Assembly: GCF_000275865.1 (NCBI RefSeq)
Contig: NZ_CM001555.1
Coordinates: 742,827 to 806,826 of the forward strand
Length of the DNA stretch: 64,000 nt
Reading direction: 5' to 3'
Origin: Methanofollis liminatans DSM 4140
GTDB taxonomy: Archaea; Halobacteriota; Methanomicrobia; Methanomicrobiales; Methanofollaceae
Shown here: positions 8 through 14,688 of the stretch, piece after piece
How positions within the stretch are numbered: the first letter of the stretch is position 1
How the letters are laid out: every line of letters begins with the position of its first letter
Notes under the pieces: model-generated
Told to the model about the DNA's origin: nothing
The model's database searches: none
The model's input: the letters and a program-made list of their open reading frames with translations, nothing else
Made by a program: the position numbers and the translations under genes

Positions 8-1075
8 ATGTATACTCAAATTGCGCGAACTTGGGAGAGTCGCATGAGTGAGCAGGAACTTGAATATTGTATTCATGATCTTCTCTCCTTCCGTGTACAG
101 AAGAAATCACAGCCCTGGATTCACTCCTCGATTCGCGAAGAATACCAAAATTTTCTCTCAAATGCGAGTTCAGATCCCGCCCTCACTGTAACTATCGGTG
201 ATTTTCATCCTGACTGCACTGGTTGTACTATCCTTGACAATATTTTCCATATCAAAAAGGACTACATCTATTGTGAGGACTCATATAAACGAGCACAATG
301 GAAATTTGAGTTGACTGGTCTTGAAAGGGGGCATACGCAGTTAAAAATTTCTGGGAACTACTTTGCTAAATACATAATTCCCGGATTCCTCATCGATCCC
401 ATAATAACATATAAACTAAATGAGTTGGGCTGTTCATTGGTTCATGGTTCTGCTGTGTGTAACAACCATGGGACTCATCTTTTCACCGCTCAAGGCGGTG
501 GGGGCAAAACGTCTACAGCGCTCTATGCCACTGAGCGTGGTTGTCAGTTTATGGGTGATAACTTTATTATTGTGCGTAAGGGACACGCTATGCCGTACTT
601 ATCGCCTCTGAATATCTTCTCATTTAACATGCTTCCCTATCTGGAGCGAAATATACCTTGGCAAATAAGGTTAGGTTATCACATGAGGAATATGCTCTTC
701 CCATTAACTGGTCTACAAATGGTGACTAAGATCAATCCAACTGATATCGATATTTATTCTCCTTCTATACCGTCTCCTTTGCGTACAATTTGTATGCTTG
801 TACCGCATGAGAGGTTTAGTTCTTCAAAAATCGATATTAATGAGTTGGTTCGACGAATGGCTTTTAATCTAAGAGTTGATTTTTCTTTTTTCACCAAATA
901 TATCATGCAATATTCATTTATCTATCCCCAAAGTTCTCTTGCAAAGTATTGGGATACATACGAAGAAAACCTAATGTGCAACCTGCAGAATATCTCTGAC
1001 AGTAGTTACAGGATTGAAGTTCCTCAAAAATATGATCTGAACGTATTCGAAAAGATTTGGGAACTGATCGAATGA
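8..1075 (+). CDS. HPr-kinase-like P-loop protein, glycan-operon paralogue 1
   Basis: 355 aa. A Walker A-like motif AQGGGGKTS lies at residues 161-169, followed by FMGDN at 181-185. This spacing of P-loop and acidic strand resembles the C-terminal domain of HPr kinase/phosphorylase. The N-terminal third carries a Gly-x-Phe-x-Pro-x-Cys-x-x-Cys motif (residues 64-73) that is shared with the next gene, so the two are tandem paralogues. It is first in a run of five co-directional genes (8-6254) that includes glycosyltransferases, so a role in glycan assembly or its control is inferred; the substrate is unknown. The DNA is AT-rich compared with the centre of the window. The start lies 8 bases from the window edge, so an upstream start cannot be excluded. 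Confidence 0.6.
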   Translation: MYTQIARTWESRMSEQELEYCIHDLLSFRVQKKSQPWIHSSIREEYQNFLSNASSDPALTVTIGDFHPDCTGCTILDNIFHIKKDYIYCEDSYKRAQWKFELTGLERGHTQLKISGNYFAKYIIPGFLIDPIITYKLNELGCSLVHGSAVCNNHGTHLFTAQGGGGKTSTALYATERGCQFMGDNFIIVRKGHAMPYLSPLNIFSFNMLPYLERNIPWQIRLGYHMRNMLFPLTGLQMVTKINPTDIDIYSPSIPSPLRTICMLVPHERFSSSKIDINELVRRMAFNLRVDFSFFTKYIMQYSFIYPQSSLAKYWDTYEENLMCNLQNISDSSYRIEVPQKYDLNVFEKIWELIE

Positions 1076-1136
1076 AAATTCCATTCTCTTGTTGTTTTGG
1101 TTCAAAGATAGTTTATGAAAATGGAGATGTTAGAAG

Positions 1137-2219
1137 ATGAAACAGATACTATCTTACAACATTCACAACATCCTTAAATTCCAGATTATTCGGGATGCTA
1201 CATGTGGTTGGAGAGACCGTATCAACTTGAAATTTTCTTATTTTGAGGTTGATAAAGTCGAAGATCCAGATATTACTCTCAATATTGGAAAGTTTACGCC
1301 TTCATGTACATCCTGCTACTCGGTCGATCATAAGTATTATATAAAGCAAAATTACCTCTACAGCAAAGAGTCAGAGGGTGTAGCAGAGTGGGAGCTTCAG
1401 ATCAACGGGCTCGAAGATGGTCCTGCTATTCTCCACTATGATGGAAAAATCAGAGGAATATCTTCGCTACTGAACCGGGATTTCCTAGCTCAAAACTTTC
1501 TCTTAAAGATCATCGAATATAAACTATATCAGAAGGGATACTATTTAGCTCACGCTGGTGGTGTCAGTAAAAACGGTAAGGGGTATATCCTCGCTGGTAG
1601 AGGAGGCTCTTTTAAGACGACCCTTTGCATGGATCTGATCCGCAAGAAGGGCTGTAACCTGCTTGGGGATGATCGGGTCCTCATTGGGAATGGTTCAGCA
1701 TACAGTTTTCCGATGAGTTTACCAGTTTTCTCCTATATGCTCCAAAATCTTGATCATGAAAATGCTTGGGCGTTCTCGCATAAGTTGGATTTACTCAGGC
1801 AATTGAGAAATAACAGTCTATCCGTTGACACTAATGTCTGTGAGCACAAACCTGTAAATATCTCAGGACTTTCCTTTATTAGTCGGGTGAATATATCCGA
1901 ACCTAGAATGCAACAGGTGTCAGGGGAAGACACTTTTCAAAAGCTTATCATGAATAATAGACTAGAGGACTATATCGACATTTCATTTCTTCGGATTACA
2001 TCTGGCCCCTTTTTGAGGTACATGCTGGCATATTCGTATATTTTTCCGGATAGTAAACTTGCACGATTCCTTGATCGTAGTGGCGTAAATCACCCCGAAA
2101 TAGTCCAGTGTTTAGGGGATCTCGCAGTTTCAAATATGATGATTCCTAAAATCTACAATGAACAGGTTGTCGAACAATTATGTGACATAATTGGCCTGCA
2201 TGGCATAGGCATAGAGTAA
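1137..2219 (+). CDS. HPr-kinase-like P-loop protein, glycan-operon paralogue 2
   Basis: 360 aa. It has the same architecture as the preceding gene: a Cys-x-x-Cys motif at residues 57-60, a Trp at 85, then a P-loop AGRGGSFKT at 153-161 and LLGDDR at 175-180. The Gly normally preceding the P-loop Lys is replaced by Phe, while the Asp-Asp pair is intact. Paralogue 1 has the reverse pattern, with a more canonical P-loop but Asp-Asn. The two may therefore have split roles or act as a heteromer (inference). It starts 61 bp after the previous stop and ends 2 bp before the next gene. Family assignment to HPr-kinase-like folds rests on motif spacing only. Confidence 0.6.
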   Translation: MKQILSYNIHNILKFQIIRDATCGWRDRINLKFSYFEVDKVEDPDITLNIGKFTPSCTSCYSVDHKYYIKQNYLYSKESEGVAEWELQINGLEDGPAILHYDGKIRGISSLLNRDFLAQNFLLKIIEYKLYQKGYYLAHAGGVSKNGKGYILAGRGGSFKTTLCMDLIRKKGCNLLGDDRVLIGNGSAYSFPMSLPVFSYMLQNLDHENAWAFSHKLDLLRQLRNNSLSVDTNVCEHKPVNISGLSFISRVNISEPRMQQVSGEDTFQKLIMNNRLEDYIDISFLRITSGPFLRYMLAYSYIFPDSKLARFLDRSGVNHPEIVQCLGDLAVSNMMIPKIYNEQVVEQLCDIIGLHGIGIE

Positions 2220-2221
2220 GT

Positions 2222-3301
2222 ATGAAGAGCGTTGCAATTCTTGGGGGTGGCCTTGCGCCATATTTTAATGAAGCAATGGCAAACCAGATCAATCTGCTCT
2301 CTAAACATCTGAACCTACGGGTGATAACCTGTAATGATATCGGGTCACGGCCATTCATGAAGTACGACCAATATACTATATTTAATTCTAAATATCTTAT
2401 CCAGAGGACTCCTTTTCTCTCCTTAATTAATGGAGGTGTACTTTTTCTGGCTACAAAATATTATGAACAAATTTTTGACTGGATCATACTACCGGGGGGG
2501 ATCGAAAGTGAATTTCTGGAGTATTTAGATTCATGTAAGTGCATTCCCATGGTCCCTTCAATCTGCCAATTAGATGACAATGCTCTGGTAAAGATAAGGA
2601 ATAAAATCCCTCAATTTCCGCTTATTATTGCACAGAGTAGGAAAACCAGGAATCAACTTGTCGAATTTGGTGCGGATCCTAAGCGCATTTTCTTGATGTA
2701 TCCTCTGGTCGATTTAACCAAGTTCCGTTACAGCGATCCACCAAATCTAGATGAGTTTAGGATTGTCTTTGCTAGTTCTCCAAATATGGAGGTTCCAGGA
2801 GAAGACAACTTCGCTGATAAAGGTGTTCCTCTATTACTTGAGGCATTTAATGACTTCCTTAAGTATGAACCAAAATCGAAACTCTACTTGGTCTGGAGAG
2901 GTTACTATACCAGCGAACTCGATAAAAAACTGGATGAATTGGAATTAGGGAACTCGGTTGAAATACTACACGGTTTTGTTGATATGCCTGCAATTTATTC
3001 CCGTTCTCATGTTATAGTGATTCCATATCTGAATCTCAAGCGGAGCCCTGATATTCCTTTGTCTGCCCTCGAATCATTAGCCTGTGGCAGACCTGTTGTG
3101 GCAACCGATGTGGGGGAGATCGCCGATATTTTAACCTCACAGGGAGTAGGCGTAGCTTCCAAGACTAGGGTTGAGGATCTCTCACAGGCATTAAAAGAAT
3201 GTCGACAGAATTACAACAAATTACAGGGAAACTGTAAAAATCTGAACATCCCTACCGAGTTATCTTTACAAAGGTTTATGCAACAAAATATCAATGAATA
3301 A
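2222..3301 (+). CDS. GT4-type glycosyltransferase
   Basis: 359 aa, GT-B fold. The C-terminal half has the GT4 nucleotide-sugar binding signature: PLSALESLACGRPVVATDVG (about 278-297), with the catalytic-type Glu in the S-x-x-E-S-x-A-x-G pattern. A phosphate-contacting segment (DKGVPLLLEAF) precedes it. The donor and acceptor cannot be read from sequence. It starts 2 bp after the previous stop and ends 11 bp before the next GT gene, so it is almost certainly cotranscribed with its neighbours. Probably cytoplasmic or peripheral at the membrane, transferring a sugar onto a lipid-linked glycan. Confidence 0.8.
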   Translation: MKSVAILGGGLAPYFNEAMANQINLLSKHLNLRVITCNDIGSRPFMKYDQYTIFNSKYLIQRTPFLSLINGGVLFLATKYYEQIFDWIILPGGIESEFLEYLDSCKCIPMVPSICQLDDNALVKIRNKIPQFPLIIAQSRKTRNQLVEFGADPKRIFLMYPLVDLTKFRYSDPPNLDEFRIVFASSPNMEVPGEDNFADKGVPLLLEAFNDFLKYEPKSKLYLVWRGYYTSELDKKLDELELGNSVEILHGFVDMPAIYSRSHVIVIPYLNLKRSPDIPLSALESLACGRPVVATDVGEIADILTSQGVGVASKTRVEDLSQALKECRQNYNKLQGNCKNLNIPTELSLQRFMQQNINE

Positions 3302-3312
3302 AGAGGATTGCT

Positions 3313-4422
3313 GTGGACACGAAGATTACTACCATTCAGTTGATATCTGGTAGATGGGACAGAGATAACTTATCAATCGCGAGGACTGCTACAAAACTGT
3401 TGAACTCTCTCCTCCCTCTTACGCAGCATGTAGTCTCTATTACAACAAACCATCGCATTCCAACGAATTCAAATCAGGTCGAACAGACTATAATTCCTTA
3501 TAGTAGTGGCAAGAGATCTCTTATTCGCCTAACTTCGATCCTCCACCACGAGATTGCTGTGACAAAGAAAGTGATAAGTTGTAGTGATGCCCGAGTAGTC
3601 TTGTTTTGCTTTGGGGCTGATCTTTTTGTTCTCCCAATTTTAACTGCGAAAATACTTAATAAGAAAGTGTTCATCAGGGCTGATGGTCGTCCTTCCCATT
3701 ATTTACGTGCGATGCGATATTCTAAGATCAAGATTGCCTTTTTTACTCTCATTGAGAGACTAATCTATCCTCTTGTCGATCGAATTGTGCTTGAACATCC
3801 ATATATGCTCTATTATTTTAATTATAAACAATACCAAAAAAAGGTCGTTGCAATTCCACTGTATATAGATTCCACGTTATTCAAAAGATCAAAAGATCTC
3901 AAGAGCAGACATTTCGACTTCGCTTTTATAGGTCGCTTCTCCCCTGAGAAAGGGATTATCGAATTTATATCTGCTCTGCAGGGCTTACCCTCAGGAATAA
4001 ATATTCTCGTGATTGGGGATGGTCCACTAAAAAATGACATACCTTGGCCAAATCAATGTGCTCTGACTTATTTTCCATGGGTTGATCACGAGGCGATGCC
4101 CAACTTTTTAAATGATATAAAGATTTTAGTGATGCCCTCCTACAAAGAAGGGTTATCAAATCTTCTCCTAGAGTCCATGGCCTGTGGCACGCCGGTGCTC
4201 GCGACACCTGTCGGGGCGGCAATGGATATCGTAATAGATGAAAAAACTGGATTTATAATGGAGAATAACTCTCCGGAGTGCATCGCTAAGAACATGATCC
4301 GGGCGCTGAACTCTCCAGACCTGGAGCAAATTGCTGAGAGTGGGAGGCGATTTGTGGAGGGTAATTTTATGCTTGAAGGATCTGTAGAGAAATGGAGGCG
4401 GGTCTTACGGGATGTTGTATGA
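3313..4422 (+). CDS. GT4-type glycosyltransferase
   Basis: 369 aa, GTG start with an AGAGGA ribosome-binding-like sequence 7-12 nt upstream. The Rossmann-like C-terminal domain shows FIGRFSPEKGI (about 202-212), VIGDGP (about 233-238) and the GT4 block MPSYKEGLSNLLLESMACG (about 275-293), whose Glu residues contact the donor. Its stop overlaps the start of the following membrane gene in an ATGA arrangement, which implies translational coupling. Sugar specificity is unknown. It belongs to the AT-rich glycan operon. Confidence 0.82.
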   Translation: MDTKITTIQLISGRWDRDNLSIARTATKLLNSLLPLTQHVVSITTNHRIPTNSNQVEQTIIPYSSGKRSLIRLTSILHHEIAVTKKVISCSDARVVLFCFGADLFVLPILTAKILNKKVFIRADGRPSHYLRAMRYSKIKIAFFTLIERLIYPLVDRIVLEHPYMLYYFNYKQYQKKVVAIPLYIDSTLFKRSKDLKSRHFDFAFIGRFSPEKGIIEFISALQGLPSGINILVIGDGPLKNDIPWPNQCALTYFPWVDHEAMPNFLNDIKILVMPSYKEGLSNLLLESMACGTPVLATPVGAAMDIVIDEKTGFIMENNSPECIAKNMIRALNSPDLEQIAESGRRFVEGNFMLEGSVEKWRRVLRDVV

Positions 4423-6254
4423 ATCGTACATATGGCGGTTTTCATACCCATCCTCTGTACCTGGTCATATTGATTGTTGCATACTTCCTCCTTGCAGTAG
4501 CACTGCTTGTAACATCGAACTCCTCTGCAACGGGATATGAGGCTTCGATCTATCGTTCGACTCCCACAATTTTCTGGATAGCAGTGGCCTTTTCCACTGT
4601 CTGTGGGATAGTTTCTTTTATAGTCCATGTTTACAGTGGTGATAACAGAACTAGAAAGTTGTTACCCGCTTTTCTGTTAATCTTTCTGAGTTATGCGGTT
4701 TGCCTTTCGCTCTTTATTATTAGGGGTTACTATATGTGGTGCATGGGGGGTGACCCGGCTACCCATATTGGCTGGATAAAAGAAACCATCTGTACAGGAT
4801 ATGTTCCAGATTCGGTTATATATCCCATCACTCATATTTATTTCTCAGAGATTGTCCAGATTACTGGCCTTGACTTGGTTCTGTTGCATAAGGTGGTTCC
4901 CCTTATCTTTGCTTTATTGATGGTTCCATTCATGTACCTTTTTGCATGTATGGTTCTACCCCAAAAAGCGGAGATTCTCTTGGCAACACTGATCAGTTGT
5001 ACAATGATCTATGGGTGGTATACCGATTTAACTCCAAATGGATTAGCAAATCTTTTTCTTCCCCTCGTTCTCTATCTTCTATTTAAATCTTTAAATTCCT
5101 ACACGATCTCGTGGGGTTTTCTTCTGTGCATAGCACTCCTCTTTTATCCTGTTTTTCATCCAATTCCAACTATATTTTTAGGTTTAGTTCTCTTAATTCT
5201 GTTAATTCTCTATATAACTTTTCAATTTTTTAAGAAAAAACATTCCACTATTTTAACAGGTTACATGGGAGAAATAAAATCATATCTCCTCCCTTTGCTG
5301 GTTTTGGGAATTTGGTTCATCTTCTGGATCTCGTCATTTCGTGCATGGGATGTGACCATACAGAATATACTTGGCGATGGGGCTAGTCCTACTAGTTTGT
5401 CTAAATTGACAGCACAGATTGAATTAGCACAAGGATATGGCTACAATATACTTGAGCAGATCGTGAGACAAATGGGGGGGCAAATTGTTCTCGTATTTCT
5501 GGCTCTGGTTAGCCTACCCCTGCTCTGGCAACAAATCCAGAAAAATAACAGATATAGATATGTCTTTTCCCTTTATGGACCTATTTTTGTATTAGGGACA
5601 CTCATAGCAATATTATATGTGTTCTATCTGCCCTTTGGCCCACTAAGGCTGATGTTTTATGTGTTAGTTTTGAGTACAGTCCCTGCAAGTTTTCTTTTGT
5701 GCTGGGCCTTGAAAAAATCTTGGGTCTGTAAAGGTGCACTAACTGCCGGGTCTATTTTGTTTTTAACAGGGATTGTATTAGTGGGTTTGTTTCTGGGGGG
5801 TATAACCAGTCTTTATCCATCTCCTTACGTTGCAACTGCAAATTATCATACGACCCAGGCTGAGGTGGAGGGGATGGATCATCTATTTGTACACATGTCA
5901 ATTGATGTTCCTATTTTAAGAATCTCCATTCCCTTGAGTCGTTATGGGGAACTCTTACTAACTTCTGAAGAGATTAAGATAAAAAAAATACCTCCATTAT
6001 ATTTAGATAGCCCGAATGCTCCATATCACTTTGGTTATGATAATGTTTCGACAATAAGCATACTTTATTCTACAGAATACTATCTTATAATCTCTGAAAA
6101 GGATAGAAATATGTATGTTGATACCTTTCCAGATATGGCGCCATACCGATGGTGGCCTCAGGATTTTGAGCGACTGAACCATGATCCTGGTTTGAATCTA
6201 CTCTATGTGAATGGTGGATTTGGCTTATGGATGTTAAGAGACGAGAGCACATGA
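4419..6254 (+). CDS. polytopic membrane protein, probable GT-C-type glycosyltransferase
   Basis: 611 aa from the ATG that overlaps the previous stop (ATGA); an alternative start at 4392 adds nine residues. About a dozen hydrophobic segments fill residues 10-480, followed by a hydrophilic C-terminal domain of about 130 aa rich in Tyr and Ser. An acidic motif GGDPATHIGW (about 110-119) sits just after the third membrane segment, where GT-C enzymes carry their catalytic acidic residues. This suggests a dolichyl-phosphate-sugar dependent transferase or a glycan polymerase, but the assignment is tentative. It is the last intact gene of the operon. Confidence 0.6.
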   Translation: MNRTYGGFHTHPLYLVILIVAYFLLAVALLVTSNSSATGYEASIYRSTPTIFWIAVAFSTVCGIVSFIVHVYSGDNRTRKLLPAFLLIFLSYAVCLSLFIIRGYYMWCMGGDPATHIGWIKETICTGYVPDSVIYPITHIYFSEIVQITGLDLVLLHKVVPLIFALLMVPFMYLFACMVLPQKAEILLATLISCTMIYGWYTDLTPNGLANLFLPLVLYLLFKSLNSYTISWGFLLCIALLFYPVFHPIPTIFLGLVLLILLILYITFQFFKKKHSTILTGYMGEIKSYLLPLLVLGIWFIFWISSFRAWDVTIQNILGDGASPTSLSKLTAQIELAQGYGYNILEQIVRQMGGQIVLVFLALVSLPLLWQQIQKNNRYRYVFSLYGPIFVLGTLIAILYVFYLPFGPLRLMFYVLVLSTVPASFLLCWALKKSWVCKGALTAGSILFLTGIVLVGLFLGGITSLYPSPYVATANYHTTQAEVEGMDHLFVHMSIDVPILRISIPLSRYGELLLTSEEIKIKKIPPLYLDSPNAPYHFGYDNVSTISILYSTEYYLIISEKDRNMYVDTFPDMAPYRWWPQDFERLNHDPGLNLLYVNGGFGLWMLRDEST

Positions 6255-6590
6255 TGGTGCGATATTGTTACCGACGGTGTCACCGGCAGAAAATATCTAT
6301 CTATGGAGATAGAATGGTCCTAGGAGAAGATTGGGATCAACAAAATTATAGAAATGGTGAGATATTACCTTAGAACAAAATCAATAAATAAATTTGATGA
6401 TAATACTTTAAATCAAGTGCTTGCACATTAGACAGGTATTGGGTCGGTGAGAACAGTGATATACTCAGTGGAAAACATCCTGCTGGAGATTATGCTGCCT
6501 CTCTATATTAATAACGCGACAATATCCTAGAGTCTTGAGGGATGTTTTTACAGAGTCAATCATTATTTTAAGTTATAGGAGATTGTAATA
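6255..6590 (+). other. AT-rich spacer with coding-like remnants
   Basis: No intact gene. Short stretches in different frames look protein-like: a frame of about 40 codons beginning in ATGA overlap with the membrane gene, and a second stretch around 6430-6510 that is interrupted by stops. This may be a decayed gene of the glycan operon, but I could not name it. The last 40 bp contain TTAAGTTATAGGAGATTG, which supplies an AGGAG site for the next gene. Confidence 0.35.
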
Positions 6591-7910
6591 ATGGTCAAAA
6601 GACTTTTACTTGCAGAAAATGTTCCCTGTTTAAATAAAGGAGAAGAAACGATATTGCAAGGAATGCTTGAAAGTTTCAATTCTCTTGGGGATTTTCAGTT
6701 ATCAATGTTATCAACGAATCCCCAATTGGATAAAAGTCGATATGGATCTAAGATTAAAATTCTTGATATAAGACAATATCTTCTATTTTTTGGTGACCGT
6801 GGATTCAAGTCGAGACTTTCAAAAATTATTTCTTCAATGATATTTTTACTGAATCATATTGGATTTCTCTGTCTGTTCAAGTTAATGGGGTCAAAGGTTT
6901 TTAGTCTTTATCGCTCCCCCATTTGGAAGGAGTATATAATTTCGGATGTAATTATTATAGGGCACAATGGAGCTTTCGGCATTGGTGGCGGGCCGAGCAT
7001 CCCTGTCATTGGATATCCTATATTTATGTCATTCTTTGCGAAAAAGATGAATAAAGTATCGATTCTGTATGCTGGAAGTATAAAAGATCCGAAAACACTG
7101 GGCATTCTTACGAGAATGGCCTATAGGTTTGCACTTGAACATCTAGATCTAATTACTTTACGGGAGAATATTTCCTATGAACGCTGTATCGACCTTGGGG
7201 TTAAGAATGAAAGCATTTACGTGACATCTGATCTCGCCTTCCTTATGAAACCTGAAACTGATGACCGGGTATATGAAATAATGGCAAAAGAGGGGCTCCA
7301 AGAGAGTAATATGCCATTAATTGGGATGACAGTCACGAGGGAGAAAGCAAACATCGCATACCCCTATTTGGATCCAGATCAGAGTTATAATGAACATATA
7401 AGGGTACTTGTGAATATAATTGACGAGATCATCTCAAATACAAATGCATTATTTGTATTTTTGCCCCATTGTATTGGCCCAGATCCTTTTAGAGATGATC
7501 GACTGGCTGCAAAAGATATTTACTCCCGTAGCAGTATGAAAGATCATATCATTTTAATCGAAACAGAATATAATGCTGCTGAATTAAAAGGTTTGATCGG
7601 AAAATTTGATCTGTTCATCGGGGAACGAATCCATTCGGTTATTAATGCAATGTCAATGGGTGTTCCGGTCATCGCCCTTTCAAACGGAGCGGATGAAAGA
7701 TTAGAGATAATTAGGATGTTTGGTCAAAAAAATGCAATTTATCCTATAGAAGATCTCCAATCGCAACCATTTGTAAATAAAATATGTGATATCCTTGTGG
7801 ATTCGATGGATCTCCGGGAAATTATGGTAGCGCAATTAACTGAGACCATTCACAAATCAATGTTAAATGGTTCACTATTAAATCACCTGGTTACATCGCA
7901 AAGTGAATAG
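6591..7910 (+). CDS. polysaccharide pyruvyl transferase family protein
   Basis: 439 aa. The N-terminus (VPCLNKGEETILQGMLES) resembles the NxGDxxI opening of the WcaK/AmsJ pyruvyl transferase family. The C-terminal signature GERIHSVINAMSMGVPVIAL (about 343-362) matches the family R-x-H-S-x-I-x-A-x-x-x-G-x-P block. Family members move a pyruvate ketal from phosphoenolpyruvate onto a sugar of an exopolysaccharide. An AGGAG site lies about 8 nt before the ATG. The 3' end overlaps the converging FrhB-like gene by 28 bp. FrhB-like and WcaK-like genes often sit together in archaeal and bacterial glycan loci. Confidence 0.8.
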   Translation: MVKRLLLAENVPCLNKGEETILQGMLESFNSLGDFQLSMLSTNPQLDKSRYGSKIKILDIRQYLLFFGDRGFKSRLSKIISSMIFLLNHIGFLCLFKLMGSKVFSLYRSPIWKEYIISDVIIIGHNGAFGIGGGPSIPVIGYPIFMSFFAKKMNKVSILYAGSIKDPKTLGILTRMAYRFALEHLDLITLRENISYERCIDLGVKNESIYVTSDLAFLMKPETDDRVYEIMAKEGLQESNMPLIGMTVTREKANIAYPYLDPDQSYNEHIRVLVNIIDEIISNTNALFVFLPHCIGPDPFRDDRLAAKDIYSRSSMKDHIILIETEYNAAELKGLIGKFDLFIGERIHSVINAMSMGVPVIALSNGADERLEIIRMFGQKNAIYPIEDLQSQPFVNKICDILVDSMDLREIMVAQLTETIHKSMLNGSLLNHLVTSQSE

Positions 7911-9202
7911 GCAGATATCTTAATTTTTCGGATAAATTTGCCGACATATTTTATTATGGATAAGAATATATTTAAGAGTTGGATGGTTTGACGATTCGCT
8001 GCTAAAACTGTGCGTGGACAGAGAATAAAAAGATCGAGTACCCAATCAATCTTTGATGGTTTGGGCAGATCGTTACATATAAGATATTTTGGGGTGCTTT
8101 TCCCTAAAAGCTTTGACAGATTAACACGAATCACATGGCGACGCTTTCTTTCAATTCCTCCTTGCGATCGAACGACATCAACAGTACTTATTTCCTTAAT
8201 TCTGATGAGACTTTTTTTAGTCATATCATCAATAATATCCTTGCCAATTATACTCCTAGGCAATACAATGGAAGAACCAAGATTGTCATCCTCTGTAATC
8301 TCTTTTAGCCATGCATCTCCACATGATATGTCCGCTAACTCCGCTGTATGATCGATGCATAAAATACACCTCCATGGGGTGAAGGAACTAAAATAGGGGC
8401 TGTAATAATCAGATAAGGGTATAATAATAGCAGCATCATTAACTGATGTTGAAATTGACATGGATCCGGGCCATCCTCTACCCCGGTATTCTATTTTGGT
8501 AACTGTTAATGGATTAATATTCATCTTATGGAGTAATAACTCTGTGGCGAGGAAAGTCTTTGTACCTGCGCAAAATAAACCGAGATGTAACACTATTCTA
8601 TGCTGCAGTTTTTTATTCATTGCCTCCGCTTTTCTAATTCCTTGGATGTGACACGGCAGCCCAACAACTGCATACTTTCCTTCGTTCTCCAAAATGTACT
8701 TTATTGCAACATTGGTGGGAACTGGACAATATTTTGATCCTGCAGCTTCAAGAATTTCTTCACGCGTTTTTGCTATGAATGGCTCTGGCTCTAGGGGTTT
8801 ATTACAATTCATCCTTGTTACTAGCGCCCCATCGATTAGTCCCTCTTCGAGTGCATAAATGAGTATTTCTGTAATTATGCCCCCTGAAGATGAATTGTAT
8901 CTTCGCTCTTGATTTATGGCATATGCAACACAGCAATCTCTTACGTTACCTAGAAGAGGGTGACTTGGTATTGCACCAAAGGAGAACTCGTTCAGATATG
9001 CGTAATTAACACTATGGCCAGGACAGCAGTTATAGCATATCCCACAGTTATTACACTTTATATGCTCTACCGTTGGGAGGTAGATTCCTCGTTGGTCATT
9101 TTTTTCTAGCGAGATTGCATTCCTCGGACAAAGACTTACACACGTACCGCAACCGGTGCAGAGGTCGTGTTTGACGACGGCGGTAATAACAGATGGTTTC
9201 AT
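7883..9202 (-). CDS. FrhB/FdhB-like F420 hydrogenase/dehydrogenase beta-subunit family protein with 2x[4Fe-4S]
   Basis: 439 aa. The N-terminus has two ferredoxin-type clusters: CTGCGTCVSLCP (about 15-26) and CNNCGICYNCCP (about 50-61). The rest matches FrhB-type flavin/F420 binding halves, including SSSGGIITEI (about 104-113) and GLPCHIQGIRKA. Glycan-locus members of this family are thought to be reductases acting on pyruvylated or other modified sugars; that link is inference here. Its ATG overlaps the stop of the upstream flippase by 4 bp, so the two are coupled. The gene is AT-rich while the flippase is GC-rich, which marks a junction. Confidence 0.8.
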   Translation of the reverse strand: MKPSVITAVVKHDLCTGCGTCVSLCPRNAISLEKNDQRGIYLPTVEHIKCNNCGICYNCCPGHSVNYAYLNEFSFGAIPSHPLLGNVRDCCVAYAINQERRYNSSSGGIITEILIYALEEGLIDGALVTRMNCNKPLEPEPFIAKTREEILEAAGSKYCPVPTNVAIKYILENEGKYAVVGLPCHIQGIRKAEAMNKKLQHRIVLHLGLFCAGTKTFLATELLLHKMNINPLTVTKIEYRGRGWPGSMSISTSVNDAAIIIPLSDYYSPYFSSFTPWRCILCIDHTAELADISCGDAWLKEITEDDNLGSSIVLPRSIIGKDIIDDMTKKSLIRIKEISTVDVVRSQGGIERKRRHVIRVNLSKLLGKSTPKYLICNDLPKPSKIDWVLDLFILCPRTVLAANRQTIQLLNIFLSIIKYVGKFIRKIKISAYSLCDVTR

Positions 9203-10752
9203 ACGATAATTCTCCTGAGCGTTGGGGGCAGGTAGGACACAAAGAGTTCTCGTTCAAATCCACTGAGGCCGAGTTCCCAGACTGCCACAAGGTAGACCAG
9301 GGTGATGGCCGCACCAACAACGGTGAGCGTAACCTGGGCAGGAAGCTGGAGGACCGCACCCAAGGTTGCTGCCGCGATCCCAATGAGGACGGTCGCCACG
9401 ATCCCAGGGAGCATCGACCGAGTGAAGGTGTGGGTTCCAACCCCGAGCACCTTCGTCGCATACCAGGGGGTGAAGAGGGCGTTCTTCAGGGTGAGAACGA
9501 TCGCCCCCGCGGCTGCAACTCCGTAGTAGCCCCAGCCGGTCAGGAGTGGGAGGGCGATCGCAAGGCCGAAGTTTGCGATGCCCATGAAAAACGTCACGAT
9601 CCCTGGTACCCGCACTCTGTTGTAGGCGATGTTGATGGTGAACAGAGGAGAGATTGAGAATGTGGTAATGCGTGGCCCAATAATGAGAATAACTAATGGA
9701 GCGAGGAAGGCGAGATCTGAACCGACCCAAAATTTTAGAATTTGGGGGGCAAGCCCACAGACCAAACCTAGTGGAATGGCCATGATAAGTCCTATCAACT
9801 TAATCGTACTCTTTGTGACTTTGATGAGAGTTTTCGTTTGTTTATTGGCGTAGTAACTAAGGATCGTAGGCGTCAGCACCCCCCCAATTGTCCCTGATAT
9901 TGCTTGGAGCAGTACCGACAATTGTAGAGCAATTGCGTACTCCCCAGCTGATGTCGCCCCGAAGAGGAGGTTTACGACAATGAGGTCAATCTGGAGGAAG
10001 AGGAGAACACCGATCTGGTTGACAACAGACCACCATCCCATCCCACAGAGATCTTTCACCTTGCTACGGTCGAAGGAGTGGATTGAAACCCGCAAGTAAG
10101 GACAGACCTGTTGGGCAAGGGCAATCGAGACTCCTGAAGCCACGACAGCCCCTGCCAGGTATGCCCCTCCGATAAGGCCGAGGTCAGGACCGAGAAGGGT
10201 GAAGAGGAGGACGATCAGCCCGGTTTGAATTACGATATTTGTGATGTTAACGAGGTTTTGGAGGTCAAGCCGGTTGTAGGCGAATAATTGGACCGTGAAG
10301 TTTCCGCTCCAGGAGCGGATCATAAAGGCGGCAGAAACCCCGAGGAAGAGGAGGACTGCGCCGCTCTCCTGCCCTTCAGGTATACTGAAGATTGCCGGGA
10401 TAAAATACGCGACCGTGAGGATGATCGGAGCCATCAGGAGGATGACCGCAGAGAGCCCGAAGAAGGCGGTGTTGAAGGTTCGGTTTGCGGCTGCATAGTC
10501 CTCTCGCTGGAGGTCGACGGTGAGGAATCGGGAGACGGAGGTGTTAAGGGACTGGACGACGATCGCAACGTAGCCAGTGATCGAGGTCGCCAGCGGGATG
10601 AGGCCGTAGGCAGCGACCCCGAGGGTGTCGATGAAGTAGGGAACCAGGAGGACGCCGATGACGACGTTCACCAGGAAGTAGGCGATGTTTGCCGCGAGGT
10701 TGCGGGGGAGTTGCGCCGCAAAATGTTGATTGGTATTGGTTTCTGTCTGCAC
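9199..10752 (-). CDS. MOP-superfamily polysaccharide flippase
   Basis: 517 aa with about 12-14 hydrophobic segments spread over residues 18-500, starting NIAYFLVNVVIGVLLVPYFI as in Wzx/PST flippases. Predicted to flip lipid-linked glycan units across the membrane. Base composition is mosaic: the 3' (9200-9640) and 5' parts are GC-rich, while 9640-9900 is AT-rich, suggesting recombination inside the gene. It is translationally coupled to the FrhB-like gene. The promoter is presumably in 10753-10830 (TTTATTTAG), next to a truncated manC. Confidence 0.85.
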   Translation of the reverse strand: MQTETNTNQHFAAQLPRNLAANIAYFLVNVVIGVLLVPYFIDTLGVAAYGLIPLATSITGYVAIVVQSLNTSVSRFLTVDLQREDYAAANRTFNTAFFGLSAVILLMAPIILTVAYFIPAIFSIPEGQESGAVLLFLGVSAAFMIRSWSGNFTVQLFAYNRLDLQNLVNITNIVIQTGLIVLLFTLLGPDLGLIGGAYLAGAVVASGVSIALAQQVCPYLRVSIHSFDRSKVKDLCGMGWWSVVNQIGVLLFLQIDLIVVNLLFGATSAGEYAIALQLSVLLQAISGTIGGVLTPTILSYYANKQTKTLIKVTKSTIKLIGLIMAIPLGLVCGLAPQILKFWVGSDLAFLAPLVILIIGPRITTFSISPLFTINIAYNRVRVPGIVTFFMGIANFGLAIALPLLTGWGYYGVAAAGAIVLTLKNALFTPWYATKVLGVGTHTFTRSMLPGIVATVLIGIAAATLGAVLQLPAQVTLTVVGAAITLVYLVAVWELGLSGFERELFVSYLPPTLRRIIV

Positions 10753-10827
10753 GTTGGATCCTCGGGGGTGGGGAAGAGAATATTATTCTCAATGGATGAA
10801 TTACTAAATAAATAGAGTTTTATTCTT

Positions 10828-11025
10828 TTAATGTGTGTTTCCCCTATTATCCGATTTGTAAATCTTACTTCTGTTTTCAGAGCAGGAGAAGAGGAGCGCC
10901 CGCCGTACGGTACGCTGGAAGAGCGACTCTTTTCCGAGGAGGGGGATGAACTGCTTCGGGTAGCAGGTCCGGCTGAGGGGAAAGAGGCGGGTGCCCGAAC
11001 CGCCTGCAAGGATGATAGTCTTCAT
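10828..11025 (-). pseudogene. truncated mannose-1-phosphate guanylyltransferase start (manC remnant)
   Basis: The first 45 or so codons are a textbook ManC/CpsB N-terminus: MKTIILAGGSGTRLFPLSR with the nucleotide-binding GGSGTRL motif, then YPKQFIPLLGKESLFQRTVR. After ALLFS the match ends, followed by about 19 unrelated codons and a stop. Full-length enzymes are about 450 aa, so the catalytic body is missing. The remaining 5' end and its leader are repeated at 11933-12075, and the first codons also at about 19476. It is therefore a deletion or recombination remnant rather than a functional GDP-mannose synthase. Confidence 0.75.
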
Positions 11026-11150
11026 GGTGGGGGTACTCCGGATGAATGTGCGAAAACTCATATTTTATTTTGCGGCAATCGTTTAAGTGGATTTCTCTTT
11101 GTCGCTCCTGCCGATCTCCGGGAAGGGTGGTTATTTCCAGGCAACTCCGC
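11010..11150 (-). repeat. manC leader/promoter duplication, copy 1
   Basis: About 130 bp is nearly identical to 11933-12075. It covers the ATG of the manC remnant and its upstream region, with the shared segment AAAACTCATRTTTTATTTTGC and then GGATTTCTCTTTG. Read on the minus strand it contains the AT-rich promoter-like stretch GCAAAATAAAA about 40 nt before the ATG. Copy 1 drives the truncated manC. Confidence 0.75.
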
Positions 11151-11178
11151 AAGAGGTGGCTGTATCCGGGGTTTCTGG

Positions 11179-11877
11179 CTACGCAACAACCATTCTTTCA
11201 GGCTCGTTCAGGAACGAGAGATCCGCCGGCCCGGCGACCAGGTCATAGATCCCCCTCCCATGCCTGATCCCGAACTCCGGTACTTCCTGTGCCCGAATTT
11301 CCCGGATCTCCGGCACCGCACCATACCGCGCATTCCGCACCCACGCGCCCCCCTCCATCTCATAGTACGCCGCCCCCCTCCGCTCTTCGTACACCCCGTA
11401 CTCACTCGAAAACCGCGTCGAGACCAGGTTCGCCATCACCAGCACCTCCTTCCCCGGGTTGACCGTTACATGCCCATATCCTGGCGGGATAAATACGAAC
11501 TCTCCCGATCGCGCCGTGACCGCCACCACATCTGAAAGATCCTTTCTCTGCAGGAGATAGTGCGCCTCCCCGGCGAGCACCTGGTACACCTCCGGGTAGC
11601 CGACGCCGGCCGGGTTCTCCGGGTGGTAGTGCCCCTTCGTCTTGACGTACTCGCCGCCGATGACGGCCGGCGGGATGACGGTGAGGTCGAACCTGACGCC
11701 CTGCCCGCCGAGCCAGGCGCTGTCCTCCGGGGTGAGGGCGCAGTCGCGGTACATGAAATAGAGGGGGCCGTCGCAGGGGGCCGCGGGGTCGGCGAGCACG
11801 CACCTCATCTCGTCGGCGGTCCGCACCGCGGGGGCGGGGAGGGGGCCGGGCCAGAGGTCTGCCAGGGGGGTGGTCAT
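11179..11877 (-). CDS. pgiA: archaeal cupin-type glucose-6-phosphate isomerase
   Basis: 232 aa. It contains the cupin metal-binding motifs of archaeal PGI: TKGHYHPE (about 78-85), EVYQVLAGEAHYLLQ (about 94-108) and GYGHVTVN (about 132-139), giving His, His, Glu and His ligands. It interconverts glucose-6-phosphate and fructose-6-phosphate, feeding gluconeogenesis and nucleotide-sugar supply. The chosen ATG begins MTTPLADLW. The open frame continues upstream, but that part is repeat DNA and is not protein-like. Its start overlaps the stop of a 24-codon frame that begins with a manC-like start (MKTII, 11949), so the gene may be expressed from the duplicated manC promoter. Confidence 0.88.
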   Translation of the reverse strand: MTTPLADLWPGPLPAPAVRTADEMRCVLADPAAPCDGPLYFMYRDCALTPEDSAWLGGQGVRFDLTVIPPAVIGGEYVKTKGHYHPENPAGVGYPEVYQVLAGEAHYLLQRKDLSDVVAVTARSGEFVFIPPGYGHVTVNPGKEVLVMANLVSTRFSSEYGVYEERRGAAYYEMEGGAWVRNARYGAVPEIREIRAQEVPEFGIRHGRGIYDLVAGPADLSFLNEPERMVVA

Positions 11878-11932
11878 GGGCCTGCCCTCGCTGATCGGTC
11901 TTCCCGGTGGTGTGGTGCTGAACCGCCTGCAC

Positions 11933-12075
11933 GGATGATCGTCTTCATGGTGGGGGTGCTCCGGATGAATGTGCGAAAACTCATGTTTTATTTTGCGGCA
12001 ATGGTTTAAGTGGATTTCTCTTTGCCCCTCCTGCCGATCTCCATGAAGGATAGTTATTTCCGGGCACACCCGCTG
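11933..12075 (-). repeat. manC leader/promoter duplication, copy 2
   Basis: Second copy of the 11010-11150 leader. Here the manC-type start (ATG at 11949) runs only 24 codons before ending inside the start of pgiA in ATGA overlap. The duplication therefore places an intact manC-type promoter directly upstream of pgiA. A similar first-codon fragment recurs at 19400-19480. Confidence 0.7.
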
Positions 12076-12102
12076 AAAAAGCCCTGAATCTCTGGTACCT
12101 CT

Positions 12103-12410
12103 GGAATGGGGCGCATGGCCTCTCTCCAGGGGACCCCCCTCCACCACCGACAAAATACGGCCGTATCGTCCCCGGATCCGGGGATCGCCCGGCCAATCCC
12201 TGCCCATGCCGCCGAGATCCGGAGATCCGGCCCCTGCGGGCGGCATCGGAGAAACACGGGAAATTCCGCCCCCTCTCCTGGCCCCCTGGCGGGCTGTATG
12301 ATTAGCAGTAATGAAATGCCCTTCACACCCCCGCATACGGCCGGGGATGGAGCCGGACTCCGGGCGGAAATTGGTTTGATTCTTGGTCTGATTGGAAATT
12401 AATGCGTTTT
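12103..12410. repeat. dispersed structured repeat, copy A
   Basis: GC-rich repeat of about 200-300 bp, related to 13205-13480, 14262-14520 and 23108-23480. The core begins AAAATACGGCCGTATCGTC and includes the palindrome CCCCGGATCCGGGG (12170-12183), a second stem ATGCCGCC/GGCGGCAT, and ends near CATACGGCCGGGGATGG. Copies A and D share a longer right flank reaching the 3' end of a PIN-toxin gene. No terminal inverted repeats or target duplications were recognised. Reading frames through it differ between copies, so it is not coding. Confidence 0.75.
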
Positions 12411-12442
12411 TTATGGTGTTCTCCTGGTTCGATGAGGACGAT

Positions 12443-12940
12443 TCACTCTTCCCCTGTCACTGTGAGAATGCGCCTGTACAGCGCATCATGGATCCAGAAT
12501 CCCCCCTCTCCTCGCAGCCGGTCCATCTCCTCGCGCATCGAAACAACCTGGCCTTCAGCCTTCGCCTGCAACAAAAGGCCGATAATCCCGGTGACCGGGA
12601 GATCGTAGAGTCCGGCGATACGGCGGGCTTCGGTCTCGTCGAGAAGGAGAATATCCGGCTTCAACTCTACGGCCAGGGCAATACTTTCCGCCTCGCCCGG
12701 GTGCAGGTCCTGTTCGAGCAGGTGCACCAGAGCGGTATTCCCGGGCTCGACCACCGAGAGCCAGCCCTCCTCGCGGGCCCTCCTGACCTCGCCTGTCCCC
12801 GGGCGGTTGCCGCCCTCTTCTACGACCTCGCGCCAGACAGCAGGCGGAATACACACTGATGAAAACTGTTGGAGCAGGTGTAAGCGACCAATCGCTGAGA
12901 GGTGGATGAGTGGGGAGGAGTTACTGACCGCCCGCGGCAT
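12443..12940 (-). CDS. DUF3368-type PIN-domain toxin
   Basis: 165 aa, starting MPRAVSNSSPLIHLSAIG. DUF3368 PIN-like proteins begin with this V-x-N-x-S-P-L-I segment, followed by an acidic GEAESIALA helix (about 101-109) and ILLLDETEARR (about 115-125), which here supply acidic nuclease residues. Predicted RNase toxin of a VapBC-like pair. Its start overlaps the 3' end of the UPF0175 antitoxin gene by 20 bp. It is the only complete copy of this toxin in the window; two further copies are decayed. Confidence 0.75.
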   Translation of the reverse strand: MPRAVSNSSPLIHLSAIGRLHLLQQFSSVCIPPAVWREVVEEGGNRPGTGEVRRAREEGWLSVVEPGNTALVHLLEQDLHPGEAESIALAVELKPDILLLDETEARRIAGLYDLPVTGIIGLLLQAKAEGQVVSMREEMDRLRGEGGFWIHDALYRRILTVTGEE

Positions 12941-13181
12941 AAGCAATGTCCTGATCGAGGTCCTCGTCGGCATAGTGCCGCGGGATCTTCCGTGCGCCAA
13001 GCAATATCTCCCACTCCCACCGTTTCACCCCTGCAAGAGTACATGCCTTCCCCGACGAAAGAATGCCGCGCTGGTAGAGTGCCAGGGCAAGCTCCTGCTG
13101 CAGTGCAGCCTGGATGGCATCGGGAGGGAGACGGAGCGCCCGGACGATATCGTGAGGCACCATGATCGTGACGTCTGACAT
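12921..13181 (-). CDS. UPF0175-family antitoxin, copy 1
   Basis: 86 aa, opening MSDVTIMVPHDIVRALRLPP and containing LALALYQRGILSSGKACTLAG with a predicted helix-turn-helix in the middle, typical of UPF0175 antitoxins paired with DUF3368 PIN toxins. On the minus strand a ribosome site AGGTGA lies 7 nt before the ATG, and a TATA-like CTATTATATGATC lies about 35-47 nt before it. It likely represses its own operon. Near-identical copies lie at 20398-20658 and 22860-23105. Confidence 0.8.
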   Translation of the reverse strand: MSDVTIMVPHDIVRALRLPPDAIQAALQQELALALYQRGILSSGKACTLAGVKRWEWEILLGARKIPRHYADEDLDQDIAYAAGGQ

Positions 13182-13204
13182 ACTGCTTCACCTGATAAAT
13201 AGGG

Positions 13205-13480
13205 ATGGGACGGAGATCATATAATAGTGGTGCTGATGCTGATGCCCCTCTCTGGTGAGGGGGAGAGAGTGGGTTGAATACGCCCGTATCGCCCCCGGAT
13301 CCGGGGTTCGCCCGGCAAATCCCTGCCCATACCGTCGAGATCCCCCGATCCCGGCCCGGCAGGCGGCATTGGAGAAAACCCCGAAATGCCGCCGCCTCTC
13401 CTGCCCCCCTGGTGGCCCGTATGATTGCTAGTAATGAACGCCCCTTCAACCCCCCGCATGCGGCCAGGGAGAGGGAGGGA
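13205..13480. repeat. dispersed structured repeat, copy B
   Basis: Copy of the GC-rich repeat upstream of the UPF0175 operon. It begins with a flank shared with copies D and E (AATAGTGGTGCTGATGCTGATG, then CCCTCTCTGGTGAGGGGG). The core holds the palindrome CCCCGGATCCGGGG at 13293-13306. The second stem is weaker than in copy A. It lies between the divergent antitoxin gene and the MntA/HepT pair. Confidence 0.75.
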
Positions 13481-13615
13481 ATCCGGGTGGAAATCGGCAT
13501 AAATCTGGCGAAAAATCTAAAATTGCACGTTTAAATTCGTTGTTGTAGACCGAGGGCGCAGGGCCGGCCGCGGGAGGAAACCCTTATCCTGATCAGTGCG
13601 TACCAGAGGTATAGC

Positions 13616-13918
13616 ATGCTGACGGCGGAGGGCATCATCGGTGCGCTGGCAGATCACCGGGCGCGGATCAGGAGCCTCGGCGTCCGGCGGATCGGGATCT
13701 TCGGGTCCTTCGTTCGGGGCGAAGCACGCGAAGACAGCGATATCGATATCCTGATCGAGTTCGAAGAGGGGAGACGCTCCTTTGACACCTATATGGATCT
13801 CAAGTTTTTTCTCGAAGACCTCTTCGGGAGGAGCGTCGACCTCGTCGACCGGGACACCTTAAAACCGGGTCTTGCACCCCACATCCTCCGGAGCGTCAGG
13901 TATGTCCAGGGAATATAA
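13616..13918 (+). CDS. MntA-type nucleotidyltransferase antitoxin
   Basis: 100 aa. The minimal nucleotidyltransferase motif [19 protein letters not shown] (about 27-45) has the Gly-Ser and Asp-x-Asp needed for metal and NTP binding. In the characterised MntA-HepT system this component AMPylates and silences the HEPN RNase toxin. An AGAGGT site precedes the ATG. The 3' end overlaps the HEPN gene by 17 bp. Intact pair. Confidence 0.85.
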
Positions 13919-14240
13919 TCTCTATCTAAGAGACATTCTTGAGGCGATCGAGAGGATTCAGCGATATACCCGGGGAATGGACTACGAGGCGTTCATAAAG
14001 AACGATCTTGTGCAGGATGGGGTGATCCGGAACCTCATGGTGATCGGCGAGGCCGTCAAACTCATTCCCGAACCGCTCACGTCCGGGCATCCCGGTGTTC
14101 CCTGGAGAAAGATTGCAGGCATGCGGGACATTCTCATTCACGCCTACTTCGGGGTGCATGATGAGATCGTGTGGGATGTCGTCCTGAACAAAATTCCTGA
14201 TCTGCAGGCTGCGGTCAGGGAGATGCTTGATCTCGCCTGA
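13902..14240 (+). CDS. HepT-like HEPN toxin (DUF86)
   Basis: 112 aa, all helical in appearance. The HEPN RNase motif R-x4-H is present as RDILIHAY (Arg75-His80), with the preceding [10 protein letters not shown] block typical of DUF86. Start chosen as MSREYN in overlap with the nucleotidyltransferase. Forms an apparently complete MntA-HepT module with 13616-13918. Confidence 0.85.
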
Positions 14241-14261: not shown

Positions 14262-14520
14262 GGCGAGGGCGATGGGGAACACTCCATTGGCCCCCCTTCA
14301 CCATAGACAAAATACGCCCGTATCGTCCCTGGATCAGGGGATCGCCCGGCCAATCCCCGCCCATACCGGCGGGATCCCCCGATTCCGGCCCGGCAGGCGG
14401 CGTTCGAGAAACCCACGAAATACCGGGCGCTCTCCTGCGCCCCTGGCGGCCCGTATGATTGCCAGTAATGAAACGCCCTTCAAACCCCCGCATGCGGCCG
14501 GGGAGGGGGAGGCATTCTGG
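14262..14520. repeat. dispersed structured repeat, copy C
   Basis: Fourth-most similar copy of the repeat. At the first hairpin the sequence differs from copies A and B but pairing is kept: CCCTG (14327-14331), loop GAT, CAGGG (14335-14339). The left flank (CCATAGACAAAATACGCCCG) is shared with copy A. The remaining DNA to 14688 shows no gene. Confidence 0.7.
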
Positions 14521-14688
14521 CCGAAAAACGGCTAAATTCAGGTCATTATCGGGAAATGGCCGTGTTATATTCGTGGGCCGGCAGGCGCCGATCCGTGCAG
14601 CCGTGAGATGATCTCTCCATCAGGAATGCCGAACGCGCCTTTGAAATCAGTTCGAAAGAGCAGGATTCCCACCTCGGCCGCGTGATCC

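Follow-up and report, generated by a model that had tools for sequence, protein, structure and literature searches.

A tandem pair of divergent HprK-like paralogues encoded in a surface-glycan gene cluster of Methanofollis liminatans DSM 4140

The paralogue pair and its gene cluster

The window (the whole 64,000-nucleotide stretch of Methanofollis liminatans DNA that was analyzed) carries at its left end two plus-strand open reading frames, listed at 8-1075 (355 aa, ORF1) and 1137-2219 (360 aa, ORF2); coordinates below are on the plus strand unless stated otherwise, the window's own genome is designated G000, and other genomes and loci are cited by G and L numbers. BLASTP aligned the two products end to end with 26% identity over 356 columns, and they were accepted as real paralogues because of the E value of this match (2e-38). 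The translation start of ORF1 is probably base 44 rather than the first ATG at position 8: the tetranucleotide ATGA at 44-47 overlaps the ORF1 start with the stop codon (45-47) of a GT4-type glycosyltransferase gene that begins outside the window, and the family alignment begins near the Met at 44. From this start ORF1 would occupy 44-1075, encode 343 aa and probably be translationally coupled to the upstream GT4. The gap between ORF2 and the next gene, a GT4, is only 2 nt, and 61 nt separate ORF1 from ORF2. The pair had been annotated as adjacent, coupled paralogues; adjacency and paralogy hold, but "coupled" is a loose term here, since the close junctions are those of each ORF with its neighbouring GT4. 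A peptide precursor gene was sought in this gap and at 6255-6590 and rejected at both places, the gap being just 61 nt and the second interval containing only ORFs of chance size.

Upstream of ORF1 lie four co-directional genes. The first two encode GT2 enzymes, of which the leading one is AglJ-like (TIGR04182, 130 bits); the third encodes a B12-binding radical-SAM protein of 480 aa that resembles HpnJ (TIGR03471, 452 bits, where the cut-off is 577.6), and the fourth is the overlapping GT4 gene. Downstream are two GT4-type glycosyltransferases at 2222-3301 (Pfam Glyco_trans_1_4, E=4e-18) and 3313-4422 (Pfam Glycos_transf_1, E=1.4e-26), then a 620-aa GT-C-like multi-pass membrane protein at 4392-6254, which had no Pfam match and shares 39% identity with a membrane protein encoded in a bacterial cluster (L045, below). 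The pair thus lies inside a surface-glycan cluster and not at the operon start. The initial annotation had placed it at the head of a glycan operon; the glycan context was borne out, but the head position was an artefact of the window edge, as the four same-strand upstream genes and the ATGA overlap demonstrate. GC content is 0.37-0.42 (about 0.40) from the GT4 and the pair onward, 0.49-0.53 in the GT2/radical-SAM core and 0.53-0.70 in the surroundings. Where the glycan island ends, a gene for an FrhB/FdhB-like ferredoxin-domain protein (7883-9202, minus strand) and, beside it, a polysaccharide pyruvyl transferase gene (6591-7910) overlap at their 3' ends. A 249-nt dispersed repeat occurs three times farther into the window, at 12134-12382, 13257-13505 and 14291-14539, with 74-80% identity and a spacing of about 1.0-1.1 kb.

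Fold and family assignment

ORF2 matched three NCBIfam profiles, HprK_rel_B (E=9.5e-10), HprK_rel_A (E=2.9e-07) and ScmC (0.0018), all far below the curated cut-offs; the best match of ORF1 reached only 0.002. The bit scores of ORF2 against HprK-related kinases A and B (TIGR04352 and TIGR04355) were 29.9 and 38.1 against a cut-off of 200, and those against HPr(Ser) kinase/phosphorylase were 12.3 against 33.3 (PF07475) and 13.9 against 240 (TIGR00679). When a profile of the family was compared with the PDB, HprK (1knx, 4e-4) and PEPCK (1j3b, 8e-4) were the top matches, and HprK_rel_B was matched by 13 of 17 homologues. An AlphaFold model made from the two window proteins alone had a pLDDT of 33 and a pTM of 0.25, values too low for it to be used, so that fold and complex are predicted from sequence profiles. 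By their P-loop, the preceding His, the Asp motif and the profile similarity, ORF1 and ORF2 are assigned to the HprK/PEPCK P-loop superfamily, in agreement with the HprK-like P-loop domain of the initial annotation.

To sample the family, some 400 genomes from the phylum were searched with a profile, and the order and a second class were searched as well. Full-length homologues were found in scattered genomes, nearly all at or close to glycosyltransferases; in the glycan loci scanned, a glycosyltransferase gene adjoins the HprK-like gene or lies one or two genes away. The family appears to comprise archaeal proteins of roughly 340-360 aa, of which ORF1 and ORF2 are probably anciently diverged members. 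No third member of the close family was found in G000. A more distant HprK-like protein of 389-391 aa (G000:C1:1734922-1735080, minus strand; L103), with an intact P-loop (SGAGKTT) and Asp-Asp, is encoded between acyl-CoA-ligase-like and amidohydrolase-like genes, and many genomes in the order give weak matches of a similar kind. Pattern scans, a type of search that is weak for a family this divergent, returned no relatives from genome contigs (ORF2 pattern) or viral contigs (pattern from the pair alignment). A literature search of open-licence papers yielded none describing proteins of the ORF1/ORF2 type.

Motif conservation

In ORF1 the conserved His is at 443-445, the P-loop AQGGGGKT, with a canonical Gly-Lys, at 488-511 (in context TAQGGGGKTST) and an Asp-Asn (GDN) at 557-562. 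The corresponding features of ORF2 are His139 (1551-1553), the P-loop GRGGSFKT (1596-1619; AGRGGSFKTTL), in which Phe precedes Lys160, and Asp178-Asp179 (1668-1673; GDD), followed by Tyr299-Ser300 (2031-2036), a C-terminal family signature of the form Y[ST] or YA. The P-loop and Asp motifs are therefore present in the sequence as they had been described. The His-Lys-Asp-Asp motif is complete in ORF2, whose P-loop has Phe, and in the other proteins of the ORF1 type (copy1). Three positions alone are invariant in the 17 homologues: the His preceding the P-loop, the Lys within it and the C-terminal Tyr. The Asp pair varies across the family as DD, DN, DE, ED (G150), EE (G141) and NE (G272).

A shared Cys-x-x-Cys N-terminal domain had also been proposed. 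The motifs exist (CTGC at 215-226 in ORF1, CTSC at 1305-1316 in ORF2), but among family members CxxC is peculiar to the two window proteins: that of ORF1 is not conserved, and of that in ORF2 most pair members keep the second Cys and not the first. A zinc site was accordingly rejected.

The four copy1 P-loops are canonical (GGGGKT, GGAGKT, SGAGKT and GGSGKT). In the ORF2-type proteins (copy2) they read GGSFKT, SGSSKT, PSAFKS, SGASKR and, in three proteins, GGAFKT; the Gly before the Lys is replaced by Phe or Ser in all seven, with the Lys kept. Because all seven carry the change, loss of this Gly is a fixed trait of the clade and not decay. Among copy1 proteins Asp-Asn is confined to ORF1, the other three having Asp-Asp, and it is found again in haloarchaeal homologues that occur singly and whose P-loops are canonical (G517, G018). 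Copy1 is thus fully canonical in three of the four genomes that hold the pair (G297, G504 and G560).

These data bear on the earlier suggestion that the two proteins have degenerated in complementary fashion into an obligate heteromer, each subunit having lost what the other retains. Taken alone, the two window sequences do fit that description, but the pattern is confined to this genome. Complementary degeneration fails because [F/S]-K is a lineage trait of copy2, copy1 P-loops are canonical and ORF1 is the one copy1 protein with Asp-Asn; copy2 moreover occurs alone in three genomes (G601, G584, G582), and single homologues with intact motifs, which the initial annotation had itself named as grounds for refutation, were found in G123, G107 and G202. 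This explanation is considered very improbable.

A second reading is that both proteins are nucleotide-binding pseudokinases that gate or scaffold glycosyltransferases or sense the energy state. The constant replacement of the copy2 P-loop Gly, the variable Asp pair of the family and the Asp-Asn of ORF1 speak for it, whereas the His and the P-loop Lys are invariant in 17 of 17 homologues and copy1 is canonical in the other three pair genomes; a non-catalytic pair was judged rather unlikely.

Distribution and phylogeny of the pair

In a tree of 25 proteins, copy1 (ORF1, G297, G504, G560) formed a clade with support 97/94, separate from copy2 (ORF2 and the proteins of G297, G504, G560, G601, G584 and G582; support 100/98). 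The two occur adjacent, with copy1 first, in four genomes (G000, G297, G504, G560) from three families, and in all four a radical-SAM gene lies near the pair, the relatives' proteins being 53-91% identical to that of the window. Copy2 without copy1 was seen in the three genomes named above; copy1 without copy2 was seen in none of the genomes searched. Both subtrees separate the window protein and that of G504 from those of G297 and G560, although G000 and G297 belong to one genus, and from this common split against the genus it follows that the pair moves as a unit. With only four pair genomes found, the congruence rests on one shared split of four taxa, which has a chance of 1 in 3 of agreeing and is well supported on both sides.

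Between G000 and G297 the radical-SAM protein is 91% and the GT2s are 73-80% identical, versus 27% for ORF1 and 34% for ORF2, so that the pair and the GT4s form a cassette that can be exchanged while the core stays constant; the low GC content of the GT4/pair region agrees with this. As relatives keep or exchange the pair together, ORF1 and ORF2 probably work together, and the proposal that they act as a unit is backed, at the level of inheritance, by tree and synteny.

It could be argued instead that two genes of unrelated function have become neighbours by chance in a recombining glycan island and do not act together, given that the island is AT-rich and mobile, that copy2 lives without copy1 and that G539 carries three other family members side by side. 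The same gene order in three families, the shared split against the genus and the fact that copy1 was never seen without copy2 make this highly improbable. In the G539 array (L077, 8697-11762) three HprK-like genes stand in tandem, the third in another branch of the tree than the first two, and tandem arrays therefore arose more than once.

The same core was also observed on a contig of a bacterial (Desulfitobacteriaceae) metagenome-assembled genome (L045, 1603-12463), where identity to the archaeal proteins is 72% for the radical-SAM protein and 39% for the membrane protein; this is either a cross-domain transfer or a mis-binned contig.

Comparison with characterized systems

The alignment of the family profile with the kinases of archaeal lasso-peptide loci spans 225 columns and takes in the N-terminal domain (hhalign probability 98.9, E=3.4e-17). 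These loci (L030 of G021, 5158-9175 and 12268-14193; L032 of G172, 7987-11527) encode lasso cyclases scoring 724 and 754 bits, above the NCBI curated cut-off, and L030 has a second asparagine-synthetase/cyclase-like gene. By sequence, the lasso-peptide HprK-like kinase is the nearest characterized type over the full length: the two-part architecture and the His...P-loop Lys...Asp-Asp layout (with Asp-Asn in ORF1) are shared with PadeK, ThcoK, PsmK and the G021 and G172 kinases, and the His-Lys-Asp-Asp residues are essential in ThcoK (PMC9266682). ORF1 and ORF2 differ from these kinases in being tandem paralogues in glycosyltransferase operons, in the copy2 P-loop variant and in a C-terminal region, past the aligned part, that bears the Y[ST] signature. 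HprK-related kinases A and B are the most similar curated models, but the match covers the P-loop region only and their partner genes were not seen. To HPr(Ser) kinase/phosphorylase (PDB 1knx, 1jb1, 1ko7) the likeness is in the P-loop, His and Asp region; the N-terminal domain is another one, ORF1 and ORF2 fall below all cut-offs, and HPr is lacking.

HPr was rejected as a substrate, as previously anticipated, since the genome lacks PTS-HPr (PF00381), for which seven control genomes gave positive results. In a survey of 19 archaea, PTS proteins were absent from all except Haloarcula marismortui (PMC2405797).

The lasso relationship raises the possibility that the pair is a protein or peptide kinase acting on Ser/Thr of an S-layer or archaellin acceptor or of a glycosyltransferase. 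HprK and PadeK/ThcoK phosphorylate Ser (PMC9266682), and the closest full-length relatives of the pair sit in lasso clusters. The pair clusters, however, have no lasso cyclase, protease, PqqD-like or precursor-like gene and hold only glycosyltransferase, methyltransferase, radical-SAM and sugar-nucleotide genes, and a weak match of ORF1 to FomB, annotated as a phosphonate-monophosphate kinase, hints at use of a small molecule. A protein substrate was considered unlikely.

Other phosphate-chemistry genes occur at related loci. A thymidylate-kinase-like gene lies beside the lone copy2 in G601, G584 and G582, and a type I phosphodiesterase gene flanks the HprK-like gene in G123 and G517. Locus L102 of G323 (6440-14066) has the same GT2-GT2-radical-SAM core as the window with thymidylate-kinase-like and type I phosphodiesterase genes and no HprK-like gene; these two genes are a possible functional replacement of the pair. 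In L027 of G150 (6152-7876) the gene immediately after the HprK-like gene encodes a fusion of NTP_transf_5 and thymidylate-kinase-like domains, recalling the kinase and nucleotidyltransferase pair of pseudomycoidin. Such genes and the HprK-like genes may, we infer, be interchangeable modules for attaching or processing phosphate on the outer part of a lipid-linked glycan.

Kinase control of a lipid-linked glycan is known from the O-antigen chain-terminating kinase/methyltransferase WbdD, whose phosphorylation of the glycan controls assembly (PMC3482155). The parallel is one of function only: WbdD has a eukaryotic protein-kinase fold and unrelated sequence, and chain termination is a feature of WbdD. 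HpnJ converts a hopanoid glucosamine to a cyclitol ether (PMC12583986), and the core radical-SAM protein may therefore remodel a sugar; it resembles HpnJ by score, but it misses the equivalog cut-off and stands in an archaeal glycan context.

Proposed function

The explanation preferred here, tentatively and with slightly less than even confidence, is that ORF1 and ORF2 are an HprK/PEPCK-fold pair, inherited and acting together as an NTP-dependent phosphotransferase on a sugar or lipid-linked glycan. The invariant His139 and Lys160, the lasso-kinase architecture, the glycan context, the co-inheritance, the exchangeable cassette, the phosphate-chemistry genes of related loci and the lack of HPr count in its favour; against it count the unusable structure model, a congruence resting on one split in four genomes, an Asp-Asp that is not family-wide, the missing P-loop Gly of copy2, the three genomes with copy2 alone and the peptide rather than sugar substrates of the characterized relatives. 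The likeliest arrangement is joint action of copy1 and copy2, probably in a hetero-oligomer, with the putative phosphotransferase adding phosphate to a sugar or lipid-linked glycan intermediate. The pair would belong to the exchangeable part that builds the outer glycan, upon a stable core of AglJ-like GT2, GT2 and HpnJ-like radical-SAM protein. Catalysis is more likely to reside in copy1, whose P-loop is canonical; copy2, with its fixed [F/S]-K, may serve as a nucleotide-binding partner of non-canonical type or as a second kinase. More specifically, though this is doubtful, the genes could represent an undescribed two-component HprK-fold kinase of archaeal surface glycans, an ancient duplicate pair transferred as a unit, with one [F/S]-K and one canonical P-loop and, as substrate, a lipid-linked glycan also bearing a sugar remodelled by the radical-SAM protein.

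The known HprK-fold kinases act on a sugar-transport regulator or on lasso peptides, and to our knowledge no glycan phosphorylation step has been assigned in archaeal glycosylation. If the preferred explanation is true, this sister family would extend the HprK fold to the phosphorylation of glycans (or glycoproteins), and copy2, because its substitution is conserved across the whole clade, would offer a natural test of P-loop function without glycine.
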